Source of the DNA: Thermophilibacter provencensis
GTDB lineage: Bacteria > Actinomycetota > Coriobacteriia > Coriobacteriales > Atopobiaceae
Reading direction: 5' to 3'
Length of the DNA: 64,000 nt
NCBI RefSeq assembly: GCF_030372065.1
Contig: NZ_JAUDEA010000002.1
Coordinates: 1 to 64,000, forward strand
Shown: positions 41,599-53,700 of the stretch, piece by piece
How the letters are laid out: the number at the start of each line of letters is the position of its first letter
How positions within the stretch are numbered: position 1 is the first letter of the stretch
Translations under genes and position numbers: made by a program
The notes under the pieces: model-generated
The model's database searches: none
The model's input: the letters and a program-made list of their open reading frames with translations, nothing else
What the model was told of the DNA's origin: nothing

Positions 41599-43194
41599 TC
41601 ACTTGACGCGGGACAGGCGGCCGTCGCGGACCTCGTAGATGCGGTCGGCCGCCGCGTCAAGCTCGCCCGAGTGCATGATCGCCACGACGGTCTTGCGGCC
41701 GCGCAGGCCGGCGAGGTGGTCGCACAGGCGCGCCCGCACCCCGGCGTCGAGGTTCGCGAGCGGCTCGTCGAGAAGGACCACGGGCTCGGGGCGCGAGAGC
41801 GCGCGGAGGAGCCCCAGCTTCTGACGCTCGCCGAGGGAAAGGTTGAGCGGCTGGTCCGTGATGGCGCGCTCGGTCAGGTCGCCCAGGTCGAGTACGCGGG
41901 CCGCCTCCGGGTCCGCCGCGGCGCCGAGGAGATTGTAGGCGAGATTTCCGGGAAACACGGGAACGGGATAGGTGAGGTAGGCCGCATGGAGCGCCTCCAG
42001 CGAAAGCGCGGCCTGCCCGTCGAGGTCGGCTGGGTCTGAGAGCCCGCGCAGGAAGTCCAGCAGGCGGGACTTGCCCGAGCCGTTGGCGCCCTTCACCACC
42101 ACGAGCTCGCCGGGGCGCACCTCGAACTCCCCCGCCCAGAGGCGCTTGCCGTCCTCGTCGCGCGCGGGCGTCGCCCAGAGCGTTCCGTCGACACGCGCCG
42201 CGGGGTCACCGGAGCCCATTGTCGAGAGCGCCTCGAAGCCGGAGGGCTCCGCCGCAGCCGCGGCAACCTCACGCAGGCGCTCGACGTGCGGAATGTTTCC
42301 ACGAACCTGCGCCACGCGCTGCGCGATAGCAGTAAGCGGCGCCTGAACGAGCTGCGCAAGCGAGTACGCCACGAGCACCTGGCCCACGCCTGCCGCACCC
42401 AACACGCAACGCCACGCGGCAACGCCCATCATCGCCGCCGCGAGCGCGCAGGAGAGCAGCGCCGGGAGGTTGGAGATGAGCAGCTCGAGGAAGCGATAGC
42501 GAGTCACGGTGCACAGAAACGCCTCGGAGCGGTCGCGATAGCGCGCCGAGAAGTACCCCTCGGCGCCGGCCGCGTTGACGGCGCGCTTGTTCTCAACGAT
42601 GCGCTTGGACTCGCCGAGCCAGGCGTCCTGCACGGGGAGGATGTCGCGCTCGAGCTCGGCGAGCGAGCGCGTGGGAAGCCGCAGCGCGAGCCAGAGGACG
42701 GGCGCGTAGACGACGATAAGCGCCGCCATCAGCGGGTCGATCAGCGCCGTGATGGCCACGGTCCCCACCAGCGCCAGCACCGCCCCCGGGATGCGCACGC
42801 TGGCCCCGGCGTAGAGCAGCGTGCCGTAGGTGTCGGTCGAGTTCATGAGGACGTTCACGAAGTGGCCCTTCTCACGGCGCGCGAAGGCGCGCTGCGGGGC
42901 CGCGAGGATGTTCCTAGCGCAGGCCACGGCGCTATCGAGGAAGCGGCGCACCCCCAGCCACGTGGGCACCCACTCGCCAAGGAGAACCGTCGCGGCAACG
43001 GACGCCACTGCGAGGACGAGGGCGAGGGAGAGCGGCGTCCCGACGCCCGGTGCCCCGCTCGCAAGCACGTCGACGACGCGCCCAACGACGATGCTCGTCG
43101 CTGCGGCGAGCAGCGTGGACGCCGCGACGCCCACGGAGCGAGCGACATTGCGAATGCTTATGTCCACAATCGGGTATGTGCTCTTCTTAATCAT
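41599..43194 (-). CDS. ABC half-transporter (membrane plus ATPase), downstream copy
   Basis: A 531-residue exporter-type half-transporter: about six membrane helices in residues 15-300 and a compact ATPase domain with Walker A VKGANGSGKSRLLDFL, signature LNLSLGERQKLGLLRAL and Walker B PVVLLDEPLANLD. The ATG at 43192-43194 has only a modest ribosome site (GGTGG). It is the tandem paralogue of the next gene. They probably form a heterodimer. The last 313 bp of both genes (41605-41917 and 43275-43587) are identical base for base. The substrate is unknown; AraC-ABC-ABC cassettes elsewhere serve drug efflux or metal-siderophore uptake. Confidence 0.85.
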   Translation of the reverse strand: MIKKSTYPIVDISIRNVARSVGVAASTLLAAATSIVVGRVVDVLASGAPGVGTPLSLALVLAVASVAATVLLGEWVPTWLGVRRFLDSAVACARNILAAPQRAFARREKGHFVNVLMNSTDTYGTLLYAGASVRIPGAVLALVGTVAITALIDPLMAALIVVYAPVLWLALRLPTRSLAELERDILPVQDAWLGESKRIVENKRAVNAAGAEGYFSARYRDRSEAFLCTVTRYRFLELLISNLPALLSCALAAAMMGVAAWRCVLGAAGVGQVLVAYSLAQLVQAPLTAIAQRVAQVRGNIPHVERLREVAAAAAEPSGFEALSTMGSGDPAARVDGTLWATPARDEDGKRLWAGEFEVRPGELVVVKGANGSGKSRLLDFLRGLSDPADLDGQAALSLEALHAAYLTYPVPVFPGNLAYNLLGAAADPEAARVLDLGDLTERAITDQPLNLSLGERQKLGLLRALSRPEPVVLLDEPLANLDAGVRARLCDHLAGLRGRKTVVAIMHSGELDAAADRIYEVRDGRLSRVK

Positions 43195-43245
43195 GATTCC
43201 ACCAATCTGGCGCGCTCGCGCCTTAGGGATGACTCCAGCCGGAAC

Positions 43246-43275
43246 CTGTAAATGGGGACCGCCCACAATTAACAG
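43246..43275. repeat. REP-like dyad at an ABC gene stop codon
   Basis: CTGT...ACAG ends enclose AAATGGGGACC and the complementary-looking GCCCACAATTAA. The dyad is imperfect, about four mismatches in 15 bp. The stop codon of the upstream ABC gene (43269-43271) lies in it. The GGGGAC word links it to the other stop-codon elements. Confidence 0.5.
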
Positions 43276-44879
43276 ACGCGGGACAGGCGGCCGTCGCGGA
43301 CCTCGTAGATGCGGTCGGCCGCCGCGTCAAGCTCGCCCGAGTGCATGATCGCCACGACGGTCTTGCGGCCGCGCAGGCCGGCGAGGTGGTCGCACAGGCG
43401 CGCCCGCACCCCGGCGTCGAGGTTCGCGAGCGGCTCGTCGAGAAGGACCACGGGCTCGGGGCGCGAGAGCGCGCGGAGGAGCCCCAGCTTCTGACGCTCG
43501 CCGAGGGAAAGGTTGAGCGGCTGGTCCGTGATGGCGCGCTCGGTCAGGTCGCCCAGGTCGAGTACGCGGGCCGCCTCCGGGTCCGCCTCCCGGCCCAGCA
43601 GGTTCTCCGCGAGCGAGCCTGTTACCACGGGCACCGGGTACGTGAGGTAAGCTGCGTCAAGCGCCTCCGGCGCGAGCACGGCCTCGCCGTCGAGGTCAGC
43701 GAGGTCGGATAGCCCGCGCACGAGGTCGAGCAGGCGGGACTTTCCCGTTCCGTTGGCGCCCTTCACCACCACGAGCTCGCCGGGGCGCACCTCGAACTCC
43801 CCCGCCCAGAGCCGCTTGCCGTCCTCCCCGCGCGCGGGCGTCGCCCAGAGGGTTCCCTCCACGCGCGCCACCAGGTCCTTCTCGCCCGTCGAGAGCGCCT
43901 CGAAGCCGGAAGGCTCCCCGGCCTCACCGGCGTGCTCGCGCAGCAGAACGACGTTCGGACGGCTGGCAACATAGAAGCTCACGAACGAGCAGATGCCTGC
44001 CATGGGGGTCTGTAGCAGCGAGAAGAGCTGCCACGCCGCGACGACCGACCCGAGGCTCACCTGTCCCGCCGACCAGAGCGCCACGCACACGGCGAGCACC
44101 GCGACTTGAAGTGCCGGCGAGATGGCGGCAGGAAGCGTCGCCTGCACGGTGTCAGCGAGGCGATGCCGGCGGAGGAACGCGCGATACTCGTTCGTGCTCC
44201 CCTCAAAACGCTGCAGGTAGAACTCCTCGGCGGCGCCGGCGTTAGCCGCGCGCTTCTCCTCCACGAGGCGACGGACTTCCTCCTGCCAGGCCTCACTCGC
44301 GGGCATCATCTCCATGAGCAGGCGCCCGGCGGAGTGCATGGGGCCCCAGTTGACCGCAAAGTACACGGCCAGGCCACAGAGAAAGACGAGCACGAGCAGG
44401 ACGTCGATCGCCGTGGCGCAGCCCAGCAGCGCCACGACCGCGATCGCGTACCCCACCGCGTTCACGTTCAGGTAGACCGCCATGGCACCGTAACCAAACG
44501 CCGCAGCGTTCACCACGTTCAGGAAGTGGCCGGCGTCGTGGCGCTCAAAGGCGCGCTGCGGCATGGCGAGCAGCTGGTCGATCGCCCCGTCGGAGGCCTC
44601 CACCTCCGCGCGGAGGTTGGCCTTGAGCGGGAGCCAGTCATCGAGGGCGAACTTCGCGAGCGCGGCCGCGAGCGACACGCCGAGAAACGTCGTCAGACGC
44701 GCCACAATCTCACCGAGCGTGAGCCCGCCCGATGCAAGCCCGTCCACGATCGCGCCCAGCAGGTACGCCGCGCCCGCCGAGAGCACGGTCCCAGAAGCCA
44801 CGCCGAGTGCCAGCATAAGGTTGTGCACGCTCGGCCTAAAGAGCGGGTATGCCTTCCCGCCTGAGGTTCTTCTTGTCAT
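43269..44879 (-). CDS. ABC half-transporter (membrane plus ATPase), upstream copy
   Basis: A 536-residue half-transporter with about six helices in residues 20-300 and an ATPase domain with VKGANGTGKSRLLDLVRGL, LNLSLGERQKLGLLRAL and PVVLLDEPLANLD. The ATG at 44877-44879 follows AAGGAG. The membrane domain differs clearly from its partner while the 3' 313 bp are identical, which points to gene conversion or a recent partial duplication. The ATPase linker also shares long near-identical stretches (VRPGELVVVKGANG). Confidence 0.87.
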   Translation of the reverse strand: MTRRTSGGKAYPLFRPSVHNLMLALGVASGTVLSAGAAYLLGAIVDGLASGGLTLGEIVARLTTFLGVSLAAALAKFALDDWLPLKANLRAEVEASDGAIDQLLAMPQRAFERHDAGHFLNVVNAAAFGYGAMAVYLNVNAVGYAIAVVALLGCATAIDVLLVLVFLCGLAVYFAVNWGPMHSAGRLLMEMMPASEAWQEEVRRLVEEKRAANAGAAEEFYLQRFEGSTNEYRAFLRRHRLADTVQATLPAAISPALQVAVLAVCVALWSAGQVSLGSVVAAWQLFSLLQTPMAGICSFVSFYVASRPNVVLLREHAGEAGEPSGFEALSTGEKDLVARVEGTLWATPARGEDGKRLWAGEFEVRPGELVVVKGANGTGKSRLLDLVRGLSDLADLDGEAVLAPEALDAAYLTYPVPVVTGSLAENLLGREADPEAARVLDLGDLTERAITDQPLNLSLGERQKLGLLRALSRPEPVVLLDEPLANLDAGVRARLCDHLAGLRGRKTVVAIMHSGELDAAADRIYEVRDGRLSRVC

Positions 44880-44977
44880 GTTCTTCTCCTTCCACGATGC
44901 TGGAACCATCGTAGAGACGAGAAGTACGCCGCAGGTCAGAACAGCGCCACGTCCGAAACCGCGTCACTCAGCACCCG

Positions 44978-45014
44978 AAAAATCGGCGCACCCCCACAGC
45001 AGGAGTGCGCCGAA
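44978..45014 (-). terminator. Rho-independent terminator for the ileS-lspA-rluD-glycosyltransferase unit
   Basis: On the minus strand TTCGGCGCACTCC pairs with GGGGGTGCGCCGA around a short loop and is followed by TTTTT. It lies 127 bp past the glycosyltransferase stop, and the space between is filled by the palindromic element 45029-45140. Confidence 0.82.
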
Positions 45015-45028
45015 TCTTTGGATTGGCA

Positions 45029-45140
45029 GGCAAAAGGGGACGTGTTATTTCTCTCAGAGTTTTTGGGACAGGCCTGCCCACGCAAATTTGGGCAGGCCTG
45101 TCCCAAAAACTCTGAGAGAAATAACACGTCCCCTTTTGCC
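45029..45140. repeat. Perfect 112-bp palindrome with 52-bp arms, directly after a stop codon
   Basis: The left arm 45029-45080 and right arm 45089-45140 are identical in all 52 positions and are separated by the 8-bp loop CGCAAATT. Words inside are AAAAGGGGACGTGTTATTT, CTCTCAGAG and GGGACAGGCCTGCCC. The glycosyltransferase stop codon (45141-45143) abuts the right arm with no spacer. It separates that gene from its own terminator, so it looks like an insertion. It has no coding capacity. Confidence 0.92.
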
Positions 45141-46445
45141 CTACGCGCCGGAACCGCCCACGACGTCGTCAACGTTGACGGCAATGTCGTGCTTGGTGGG
45201 CACCCACTCGACCTTCTTGAAGAGCGCGGCCACCGTAATGGGGATGTAGGTCATCATGAAAAACGGGAACGTGAAGATGTTCGTGACGACTCGCCACTTT
45301 TTCTTGGCGTGAATCTTCTTGCGCTCGGAAATCGTGGTGATCACCGCAAGGATGAGAAACACGACGTACATGGACGCAAAGGTCATGATGAGCGACCCCA
45401 CGCACATGTCGAGCTCGGCCTGCGTGGCAATGAAGCCGTGGCTAAGCGAGCCCACGATGAGGTACGTCGCGTTCACAAAGAACGAGAGCAGCGTCAAGAT
45501 CATGCCGGGCGCCACCGTCATGAGCATGTCGTAGCTCGCGAAGCGGCCCTTGGAGATGCCCTTCACCAGGTCGCGCCCGTAGCTAAAGAACACCTGGTAG
45601 AAGCCCTTGGTCCAGCGCATGCGCTGAGTCCAGGACGCCTTGAACGTGACGGGCTGCTCGTCGAAGAACTCCGCCGGCGCATAGCCGATCTGCACGTTGT
45701 TGGCGCAGCAGAACGTGGAGAACTGGATGTCCTCCGTGAGGGTGTGGAAGTCCCAGCCGTGCATACCGCGCACGATGCGCTCGGACACCATCCAGCCCGA
45801 GCCGGAGATGGCGCAGCTCGTGCCCATCATCATGCGCGCGTTGTTGAGGAACTTCGCCTCGCGCATGAACCAGAGCGCATAGGCGGCGCTCACCCACGAG
45901 GAGTCAAAGTTCTTGGAGTTGCGATACCCCGTGCAGACGAGGTAGCCCGCGTCAAAGGCCTGGTTCATAACTGAGATGAAGTCCTTTGAGACGAGGTTGT
46001 CCGCATCAAGGACGACAAACGCCTCGTACTTGTCGCCGTACTCGTTGAGGATGCGGTCGAAGCCGTAGTCGAGCGCCCAGCTCTTGCCGCGGCGCGCGAG
46101 GTCGTTGCGGTCCCAGACGATGGCGCCCGCCTTCTCTGCCTCGGCGTGCGTGTTGTCCGTGCAGGCGTCGCACACCACGAAGACGTCCATGAGCTCGCGC
46201 GGGTAGTTCTGCTCGAGGATGGAGCGCACGAGGTTGCCAATAACGACTTCCTCGTTGTGTGCCGAGATGAAGAAGGCGTAGCGGTGCTGCTTCTTGGCCT
46301 CGGGCAGCCTCACGGTGCCCTTGAACATCACGCGCAGCACATACACGATCTGGTAGAAGTACGCCAGCGTGAAGAACAGCCAGATGATCAGGTTGAAGAT
46401 GACGAGCGGCGTGAGGCCAAACTTGTTGAGCTCCATCATGGGCAT
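45141..46445 (-). CDS. Processive-type family 2 glycosyltransferase (BcsA/hyaluronan synthase-like)
   Basis: A 434-residue membrane enzyme. One or two N-terminal helices (residues 12-40) precede the cytoplasmic GT-A domain with FFISAHNEEVVIGNLV, the DAD motif (VVLDADN), an acceptor GSG motif, TEDIQFS and QRMRW, the full set seen in processive synthases. Three to four C-terminal helices follow (residues 310-410). No PilZ domain and no accessory polymer gene are nearby, so the product is unknown. It follows rluD by 27 bp and is probably in the ileS operon. Confidence 0.87.
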   Translation of the reverse strand: MPMMELNKFGLTPLVIFNLIIWLFFTLAYFYQIVYVLRVMFKGTVRLPEAKKQHRYAFFISAHNEEVVIGNLVRSILEQNYPRELMDVFVVCDACTDNTHAEAEKAGAIVWDRNDLARRGKSWALDYGFDRILNEYGDKYEAFVVLDADNLVSKDFISVMNQAFDAGYLVCTGYRNSKNFDSSWVSAAYALWFMREAKFLNNARMMMGTSCAISGSGWMVSERIVRGMHGWDFHTLTEDIQFSTFCCANNVQIGYAPAEFFDEQPVTFKASWTQRMRWTKGFYQVFFSYGRDLVKGISKGRFASYDMLMTVAPGMILTLLSFFVNATYLIVGSLSHGFIATQAELDMCVGSLIMTFASMYVVFLILAVITTISERKKIHAKKKWRVVTNIFTFPFFMMTYIPITVAALFKKVEWVPTKHDIAVNVDDVVGGSGA

Positions 46446-51645: not shown

Positions 51646-53547
51646 ATGGCAGACAAGGCACTCTCCCCCGCCAACCGCAAGTACCTCGAGCTCCTCTCCG
51701 AGAAGTTCCCCTCCGCGCAATCGGTCTACACGGAGATTATCAACCTCGAGGCCATCCTCAACCTCCCCAAAGGCACGGAGCACTTTGTCTCGGACGTGCA
51801 CGGCGAGTACGACGCCTTCAAGCACATCCTCAACAACTGCTCCGGCGTCATCCGGGAGCGCGTGGCCGCCACCTTCCGCTTTGAGCTCACTCACGACGAG
51901 CAGGCCGACCTCTGCACCCTCATCTACTACCCGCACCGCAAGCTCCGCCGCCTGCGCTCCAGCGGCACGGCCACTCCGGAGTGGTACGCCATAACCCTCA
52001 TGCGCCTCGTGCGCCTGGCGCGCTACCTCTCGGACTCCTACACGCGCTCCAAGGTGCGCAAGGCCATGCCCGTCGAGTATGCCTACATCATCGATGAGCT
52101 TCTCCACGCGGCCCCCGGCGAGGGCGAGCAGCGCCAGCGCTACCACCAGCGCATCATCGACACCATCGTGGACACCGGCTCGGCCGATGACTTCATCGTG
52201 AGCCTCGCCTCGCTCATCAAGCGCCTCGCCGTGGACCACCTCCACCTCGTGGGCGACGTCTTTGACCGCGGGTCGCACGCCGACAAGATCCTCGACCGCC
52301 TCATGGAGTACCACTCCGTGGACCTACAGTGGGGCAACCACGACATCGTGTGGATGGGTGCGGCCGCGGGTTCCGCCACGTGCCTTGCCGCCGTCATCCG
52401 CAACAACATCCGCTACGACTCGCTCAAGATCCTCGAGGGCGCCTACGGCATCTCCCTGCGCGAGCTCGCGCTCTTTGCGGAGGCAACCTATCGCGCAGAC
52501 GACGCCATGAGCCCGCTCGAGAAGGCCATCTCGGTCATTCTCTTCAAGCTCGAGGGGCAGACCATCCTTCGTCACCCCAACTGGCACATGGAGGACCGCC
52601 TGCTGCTCGAGCACGTGGACCCCGCCCGGGGCGTCGCACGCGTGGGCGAGAAGGACTATGAGCTCACCACGAGCGACTTCCCCACGCTCAATCCGGGTGA
52701 CCCCTACGCACTCTCCGAGGACGAGCTCCGCGTGATGGACAACCTCCTCGAGGCTGTGCGCACCTCGTACAAGCTGCAGAAGCACGTGAACTTCCTCTAC
52801 GAGCACGGGAGCGCCTACCTCGTCCACAACAACGACGTGCTGTTCCACGCCTGCGTGCCCATGAACGAGGACGGCACGTTCCACCCCGTGAACCACCAAG
52901 GCCAGCTGCTCTCCGGCAAGGCCTATTACGACTACGCGGACAAGCTCGCGCGTCGCGCCTGGCACGAGCACGACGAGGTCTCGCTCGATTGGATGTGGTA
53001 CCTCTGGTGCGGACGCTACTCCCCGCTCTCGGGCCGCGTGGTCAAGACCTTCGAGCGCACCTACTTCAAGGACCGCAGCACGTGGGAGGAACCTCGAGAC
53101 CCCTACTACGCGCTCACGGATGACGAGCGCGTCTGCCGCCGAATCCTCGAGGAGTTTGGCGTAGACCCCAGCTGCGGCCACATCATCAACGGCCACACGC
53201 CCGTCCATGCCTCGGAGGGCGAAAAGGCCGTGCGCGCGGGGGGACGGCTCATCGTCATCGACGGAGGCTTCTGCCAGGCCTACCACAAGACCACCGGTAT
53301 CGCCGGCTACACCCTCATCGCCGACCCGCGCGGCATGCGCATCAAGGCTCATCGCCCCTTCGGCTCAATTGCGGACGTCCTCGACCTCAACGCCGACATC
53401 ATGAGCGACGACGACCGCTTCGAAGTAAGGCCGCACCCTCTCACGATCAACGACACGGACACCGGCGCCGACATCCGCGAGCAGATCGCCGACCTCCGGG
53501 CGCTTCTCAACGCCTACCGCTCTGGCGAGCTCCCCGAGCGCTCGTAA
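51646..53547 (+). CDS. fbp: Fructose-1,6-bisphosphatase class III
   Basis: A 633-residue gluconeogenic phosphatase of the class found in Firmicutes and Coriobacteriia, with a calcineurin-like metal core: SDVHGEYDAF, GDVFDRG, GNHDIVWMGAA and the later INGHTPVHASEGEK. GAAGGGA precedes the ATG at 51646. The length is normal. The TAA stop lies inside the left arm of a long inverted repeat. It is on the opposite strand to ileS, sharing the 51500-51645 promoter region. Confidence 0.95.
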   Translation: MADKALSPANRKYLELLSEKFPSAQSVYTEIINLEAILNLPKGTEHFVSDVHGEYDAFKHILNNCSGVIRERVAATFRFELTHDEQADLCTLIYYPHRKLRRLRSSGTATPEWYAITLMRLVRLARYLSDSYTRSKVRKAMPVEYAYIIDELLHAAPGEGEQRQRYHQRIIDTIVDTGSADDFIVSLASLIKRLAVDHLHLVGDVFDRGSHADKILDRLMEYHSVDLQWGNHDIVWMGAAAGSATCLAAVIRNNIRYDSLKILEGAYGISLRELALFAEATYRADDAMSPLEKAISVILFKLEGQTILRHPNWHMEDRLLLEHVDPARGVARVGEKDYELTTSDFPTLNPGDPYALSEDELRVMDNLLEAVRTSYKLQKHVNFLYEHGSAYLVHNNDVLFHACVPMNEDGTFHPVNHQGQLLSGKAYYDYADKLARRAWHEHDEVSLDWMWYLWCGRYSPLSGRVVKTFERTYFKDRSTWEEPRDPYYALTDDERVCRRILEEFGVDPSCGHIINGHTPVHASEGEKAVRAGGRLIVIDGGFCQAYHKTTGIAGYTLIADPRGMRIKAHRPFGSIADVLDLNADIMSDDDRFEVRPHPLTINDTDTGADIREQIADLRALLNAYRSGELPERS

Positions 53548-53627
53548 ATTGTGACAATGGCGACAGGGTAGATTGTCACCATGGCCCAATGGTGACAATC
53601 TACCCTGTCACCATTGTCACAATTTAC
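53544..53627. repeat. Stop-codon-spanning inverted repeat, GTGACAATGG type
   Basis: The 39-bp arms 53544-53582 and 53589-53627 differ at one position and are separated by GGCCCA. Words inside are GTAAATTGTGACAATGG and GGTAGATTGTCACCAT. The fbp stop codon TAA (53545-53547) is part of the left arm. It may work as a terminator, but no T tract follows. Confidence 0.88.
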
Positions 53628-53700
53628 GCCGTCAGCTTTGTCACCAAAATGGGTATCAGATAACCCAAGTACCACCTCTTACGAAGGGTAAACGCAAAAG

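Follow-up and report, generated by a model that had tools for sequence, protein, structure and literature searches.

A perfect palindrome at a stop codon in Thermophilibacter provencensis is most probably a cargo-less copy of a Y1 transposase-linked terminal inverted repeat family

The window analyzed here, a stretch of 64,000 nucleotides of Thermophilibacter provencensis (assembly GCF_030372065.1, contig NZ_JAUDEA010000002.1, positions 1 to 64,000), contains at 45029..45140 an unstranded inverted repeat of two 52-nt arms that are 100% complementary and enclose an 8-nt spacer. The left arm (45029..45080, plus strand), which includes a conserved 41-nt stretch at 45032-45072, is followed by the central spacer (45081..45088, likewise unstranded) and by the right arm (45089..45140, minus strand), the exact reverse complement of the left. 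Its last base, 45140, touches the TAG stop codon (45143-45141, the complement of 45141-45143) of a minus-strand glycosyltransferase gene (45141..46445) that encodes a 434-aa product and has orthologues in relatives. The native intrinsic terminator of this gene (44983..45013, minus strand), which is also found in relatives lacking the element, is displaced, with its stem starting at 45013, 127 nt from the stop. The geometry claimed by the sequence-only reading (arm and spacer lengths, contact with the TAG, distance to the terminator) is therefore exact. By the search used, no other perfect inverted repeat of at least 20 nt occurs in the 64-kb window. The palindrome region is predicted to form an extremely stable hairpin (−146 kcal/mol; folding z-score −17), and no canonical terminator match lies within it. 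Since the native terminator was the sole one found at the site, a canonical terminator function of the palindrome was rejected, as were Rfam matches (mir-3913, mir-581 and others), which are hairpin look-alikes with scores under the gathering scores. Elsewhere in the window, two adjacent ABC transporter genes (41599-43266 and 43269-44909) share nearly identical C-terminal ATPase parts, a pattern that suggests duplication or conversion.

Searched at the DNA level, the genome that contains the window (G000) gave 90 matches, grouped into about 39 places that carry the arms of the palindrome, so that the further copies the sequence-only reading had proposed to look for do exist. What stays constant in this repeat family, termed family A, is the arm, ~41 nt long (G000 consensus AAATGGGGACGTGTTTTTTCTCTCAGAGATTTTGGGACAGG), and the spacer is different in nearly every G000 copy. 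Copies end either in CTGTN or in GGC followed by AAAAGGGG, and about half have the end CCCCAAAT, without a T-run. Family A repeats break short-read assemblies, with contig ends often falling inside the arms (G000 C11, C24, C25, C33, C34 and C19; also in G009, G022 and G025), and copy numbers are thus lower bounds. Palindromes of a second family, B, are nested in the middle of family A at two loci, L152 1519-1713 (G000 C10:25818-26007) and L156 1592-1730 (G000 C23:82688-82832), the latter with full symmetry, and in L170 (G014) the symmetry reaches a further 56 nt outwards, as though one family A palindrome lay inside another. The window itself holds a family B palindrome at 53543-53628 (40-nt arms, 98%, 6-nt loop), located between the fructose-bisphosphatase gene and ftsH and including the TAA stop of the former.

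Three Y1 transposase genes (PF01797, with the Y1 proteins matching above cut-off) are present in G000, every one flanked by its own inverted-repeat family: family A around the gene on C33, family B (TGACAAAGGTGACAGGGTA...) as the terminal inverted repeat (TIR) of the gene on C32, and family C (GAAGGGACAGTCCCTTC...) around the gene on C23. When the family A arm profile was compared with Y1 loci fetched from 31 congeneric genomes, it matched the flanks of one Y1 clade, and nine genomes carry a family A-flanked member of that clade (G000, G009, G022, G018, G010, G012, G014, G027 and G025). The sole profile match outside the clade was a weak one, at L207. Most clade loci have two arms upstream of the Y1 gene and one inverted arm downstream; at nearly every Y1 locus outside the clade the TIR is a different one and usually contains a GGG(G)AC core. 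Family A matches are more numerous in genomes with the clade (P = 3e-5, the counts being lower bounds), yet G029, G011, G021 and G017 have family A matches and no family A-flanked Y1 gene. The arm sequence is tied to one Y1 clade, which bears out the suspected involvement of a Y1 (TnpA_REP-like) transposase, and the palindrome is one copy of a transposase-linked TIR family, in keeping with the mobile-element origin that had been proposed for it.

The family A Y1 proteins of the relatives are 252-258 aa long, and the HUH histidines H60 and H62 and the tyrosine Y119 are invariant. In a fold search with an AlphaFold2 model of the transposase (mean pLDDT 80), the best PDB match was 4er8, the structure of E. 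coli TnpA_REP in complex with a REP hairpin, whereas phmmer gave no match in the PDB. With regard to the C-terminal helix-turn-helix domain typical of TnpA_REP subclass 2.1, the model shows C-terminal helices at 211-223, 228-235 and 239-251, with no Pfam HTH match above cut-off, and the NCBIfam model REP_Tyr_transpos (NF047646) scored four Y1 proteins at 41 to 72 bits, under its curated cut-off of 80 bits. In G000 the cognate Y1 gene is 5'-truncated: the first ~35 codons are gone and the left arm runs straight into the middle of the frame, and the family A transposase is, on its sequence, probably inactive in this genome. In 15 genomes the ptsI stop is closely followed by a Y1 gene with its flanking TIRs (a TIRtron). 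Among these genomes, Y1 identity falls as low as 47% and the TIR families differ; the Y1 loci at the ptsI 3' end include L154, L185-L193, L120, L125, L128, L195 and L199.

To place the insertion in time, we compared the same site in relatives found via the neighboring gene, which comprise Olsenella, Thermophilibacter and other Atopobiaceae, many of them from chicken gut as read from their record names. A related palindrome follows the same glycosyltransferase stop in L011 (G014, Olsenella sp. SW781), G012, L017 and L021. In L011, an isolate with a 255-kb contig, and in G012 it is perfect and differs in sequence from that of the window, with a spacer homologous to the window's and diverged from it, and in L017 and L021 it has a variant or degraded form. 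L010 retains a remnant, and L018-L020 carry no element. As a separate observation, L016 carries at this very stop a palindrome that is also perfect but whose family (GTGACAATTAGGACAGGTTGGATTGTCAC core) is unrelated.

These comparisons bear directly on whether the arms are perfect simply because an active element arrived recently and they have had no time to diverge, one of two options that the sequence-only reading had thought likely, the other being active maintenance. The perfection of the arms, the presence in the genome of an autonomous copy with family A TIRs, and the view that long palindromes are generally unstable would all fit such an arrival. It is largely refuted by the orthologous copies, and we regard it as improbable: G014 and G012 have the element at the same stop, with spacers that are homologous but diverged, variant or degraded forms occupy it in L017, L021 and L010, the arm differences between species come in matched pairs, and the cognate Y1 protein in G000 lacks its first ~35 residues. 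As judged from these alignments, the insertion at the glycosyltransferase stop is not recent, because the same stop codon carries an element in other species, the arm changes are paired and the spacer has drifted. A fold-back artefact of assembly is next to negligible as an explanation. Draft contig ends of G000 and its relatives do often lie in family A arms, and L009/L089 (G025) and G022 C91 look like fold-backs, but the window palindrome has an asymmetric spacer and unlike flanks on its two sides, and independent genomes, one of them the SW781 isolate, have their own perfect palindrome at the same stop.

We then quantified the matched evolution of the two arms at orthologous sites, defined by ≥80% identity of both flanks across ≥200 nt, with one pair per site and with the fold-back-like loci named above left out. 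Relative to G014, the window shows 5 arm sites with a change in both arms and none with a change in a single arm; the corresponding numbers for G012 were 3 and 0. Over 11 orthologous sites there were 18 matched changes, where independent arms would be expected to give ~2 sites with a change in both, together with 23 one-arm changes and 1 site at which both arms changed differently. At the C14 site, the spacers are still alignable across five genomes though the arms changed in pairs. The paired changes at the 11 sites and at C14 thus indicate, from the aligned sequences, that the two arms are kept in agreement in elements already in place, and the perfection of the arms is better explained by this upkeep than by recent arrival. 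The matching is not absolute, given the 23 one-arm changes.

Template switching between inverted-repeat arms is known to make the arms of quasi-palindromes identical in yeast and E. coli (PMC8604942, PMC7202029). The outcome is the same here, with the difference that homogenization is deduced from species comparison and not observed. A serious, if less favored, possibility is that the arms match by repeated re-insertion or by conversion from other genomic copies rather than by arm-to-arm correction in place. Arm types are partly genome-specific (GTG in 31/39 arms of G000, GGG in 41/56 of G014), and the same stop codons hold different palindrome families in different species, as would be expected under such replacement. 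Re-insertion should, however, replace the spacer, and the C14 spacers align in five genomes despite the paired arm changes.

Next, we asked how family A elements lie relative to gene ends, with coding frames scored by the codon usage of six window genes and gene ends called by a simple codon score. Among 107 element sides with a gene end at −150..+60, the stop lies at −13..+2 in 73. Reduced to 61 independent sites (one element per orthologous site), 38/64 gene ends fall at −13..+2 of the arm, and the first bases of the element itself are part of 19 stop codons. This clustering has P ~4e-8 by a simple binomial that allows insertion only 60 nt of room per site. Contact with stop codons is a habit of the family. 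Overlapping stops are mostly CTG-TAA, CTG-TGA or N-TAA(AAGGGG), and the CTG[TC]N end is found on only 22/76 stop-adjacent or overlapping sides, so a target rule based on it is incomplete. Outward spreading of the palindrome up to coding sequence was rejected as a general cause, with symmetry beyond the arm mostly 0-6 nt. The precision noted at the glycosyltransferase stop, from which the sequence-only reading had proposed target choice by structure or sequence, is thus systematic and family-wide; target sequence, structure or selection may each set it.

Two convergent junctions, EngB/MntP and ClpX/GT8, were compared over ~30 species. The C-termini of EngB and ClpX are essentially unchanged with and without the element, which supplies the stop where it is present, and other palindrome families occupy the same stops in other species. 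L308 (G011) has, at the EngB/MntP junction, a multi-layer palindrome spanning from stop to stop of the convergent genes. A target site duplication, as a MITE of a DDE transposon would have, was not apparent at the window site or at the two junctions EngB/MntP and ClpX/GT8, although the element-free sites used for comparison are diverged. The ClpX/GT8 junction also bears on the idea that the palindromes are host-made bidirectional terminators or RNA-processing hairpins, kept for function at gene ends and linked to the transposase only historically. The native terminator of element-poor relatives is missing at this junction in G000 and G014, where the element is present, and the extreme stability of the window hairpin points the same way. 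Conversely, the element has no canonical terminator match, this being confined to the native terminator, roughly every second copy has CCCCAAAT and no T-run at its end, and presence is patchy among close species. We consider a host-made hairpin unlikely, though less so than a recent arrival.

Together, family membership, the link between arm and Y1 clade, the site shared across species, paired arm change and the stop-codon habit are direct observations, and with considerable confidence we interpret the palindrome as a non-autonomous, cargo-less TIRtron copy, that is, two TIRs of a Y1/HUH REP-type transposase (TIRYT) placed head to head. In the mechanism we envisage, a full-length TIRYT, since truncated in G000, would have dispersed the element in the form of a folded single strand and inserted it at gene ends, into short sites of which CTG-T is an example. 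The first bases of the element (CTG TRA, or T followed by AAAAGGGG) would restore the stop codon, so that insertion would do little harm and the copy would survive. Once the element is resident, the identity of its arms may be due for the most part to hairpin template switching or conversion rather than to recent arrival. The mobility of family A is itself something we infer from sequence. More tentatively, and with more doubt than confidence, the family could be viewed as a repeat population in which insertions at stop codons outlast species and arms are rewritten together towards the type of the host genome, in parallel with a TIRYT that is inherited vertically and held at the ptsI 3' end while its TIR changes family.

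With these results, the known range of TIRYT repeat families comes to include gut Atopobiaceae, where a transposase clade is clearly paired with a repeat sequence. Orthologous long palindromes in close species also offer a direct test bed for how palindromes stay perfect and why they lie at stop codons. Of specialist interest are the matched arm evolution at fixed sites and the change of TIR type at a transposase locus that itself stays in place.

Several features of family A have published precedents. Y1 genes that lie between long TIRs (TIRtrons, TIRYT), with TIR families of moderate abundance, were described by Di Nocera et al. (2013; PMC3733652). These authors also reported that, of the REPs situated between convergent genes, most are ≤20 bp from both 3' ends, and that a TAG stop is often supplied by GTAG REP ends. 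Compensatory changes across REPIN hairpins were reported by Bertels and Rainey (PMC3116915), and vertical inheritance of RAYTs is established (PMC8049555). Because 3'-end location, REP-supplied stops and compensatory arm changes have already been published, family A belongs to a known kind of element; what is new is a TIRYT/TIRtron-type repeat family in Olsenella/Thermophilibacter. With the TIRtrons and their TIR families (PMC3733652; TnpA_REP subclass 2.1, PMC6006769) it shares the HUH motif and catalytic tyrosine, long TIRs flanking the Y1 gene, and a moderately abundant, dispersed TIR family whose members are often paired as inverted dimers and have a GGGGAC-type core. As to the GGGGWSAS-type TIR motif, family A contains GGGGACGT and GGGACAGG, with GGGGACAG in some copies only, and the motif fits many other TIRs of the genus. 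It differs from the described TIRtrons in its host group, Actinobacteria not being mentioned in the 2013 paper (PMC3733652), in TIR pairs nearly fused into perfect palindromes of ~100 nt, in the nesting of several families in one another, and in CTGTRA ends that supply stops.

Like REPs and REPINs (BIMEs) with their RAYTs, family A comprises non-autonomous doublets in inverted orientation, linked to one Y1 gene that is inherited vertically; these doublets lie at 3' ends, supply stop codons and show compensatory arm changes. Unlike them, it has an arm of ~41 nt in place of a short REP hairpin, and its ends lack the GTAG at the hairpin foot that marks the GTAG REP superfamily. The CGTC REP superfamily consists of 20-40 bp repeats with an unpaired terminal CGTC and no linked transposase, whereas in family A the CGTC is internal and paired (GGGGACG/CGTCCCC), the element is ~100 nt long and a transposase is linked to it. 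Finally, the Y1 HUH catalytic domain and fold are the same as in IS200/IS605, from which the family A system is set apart by its TIR layout and the C-terminal extension of its transposase, with TnpA_REP being the better match in both fold and NCBIfam comparisons.
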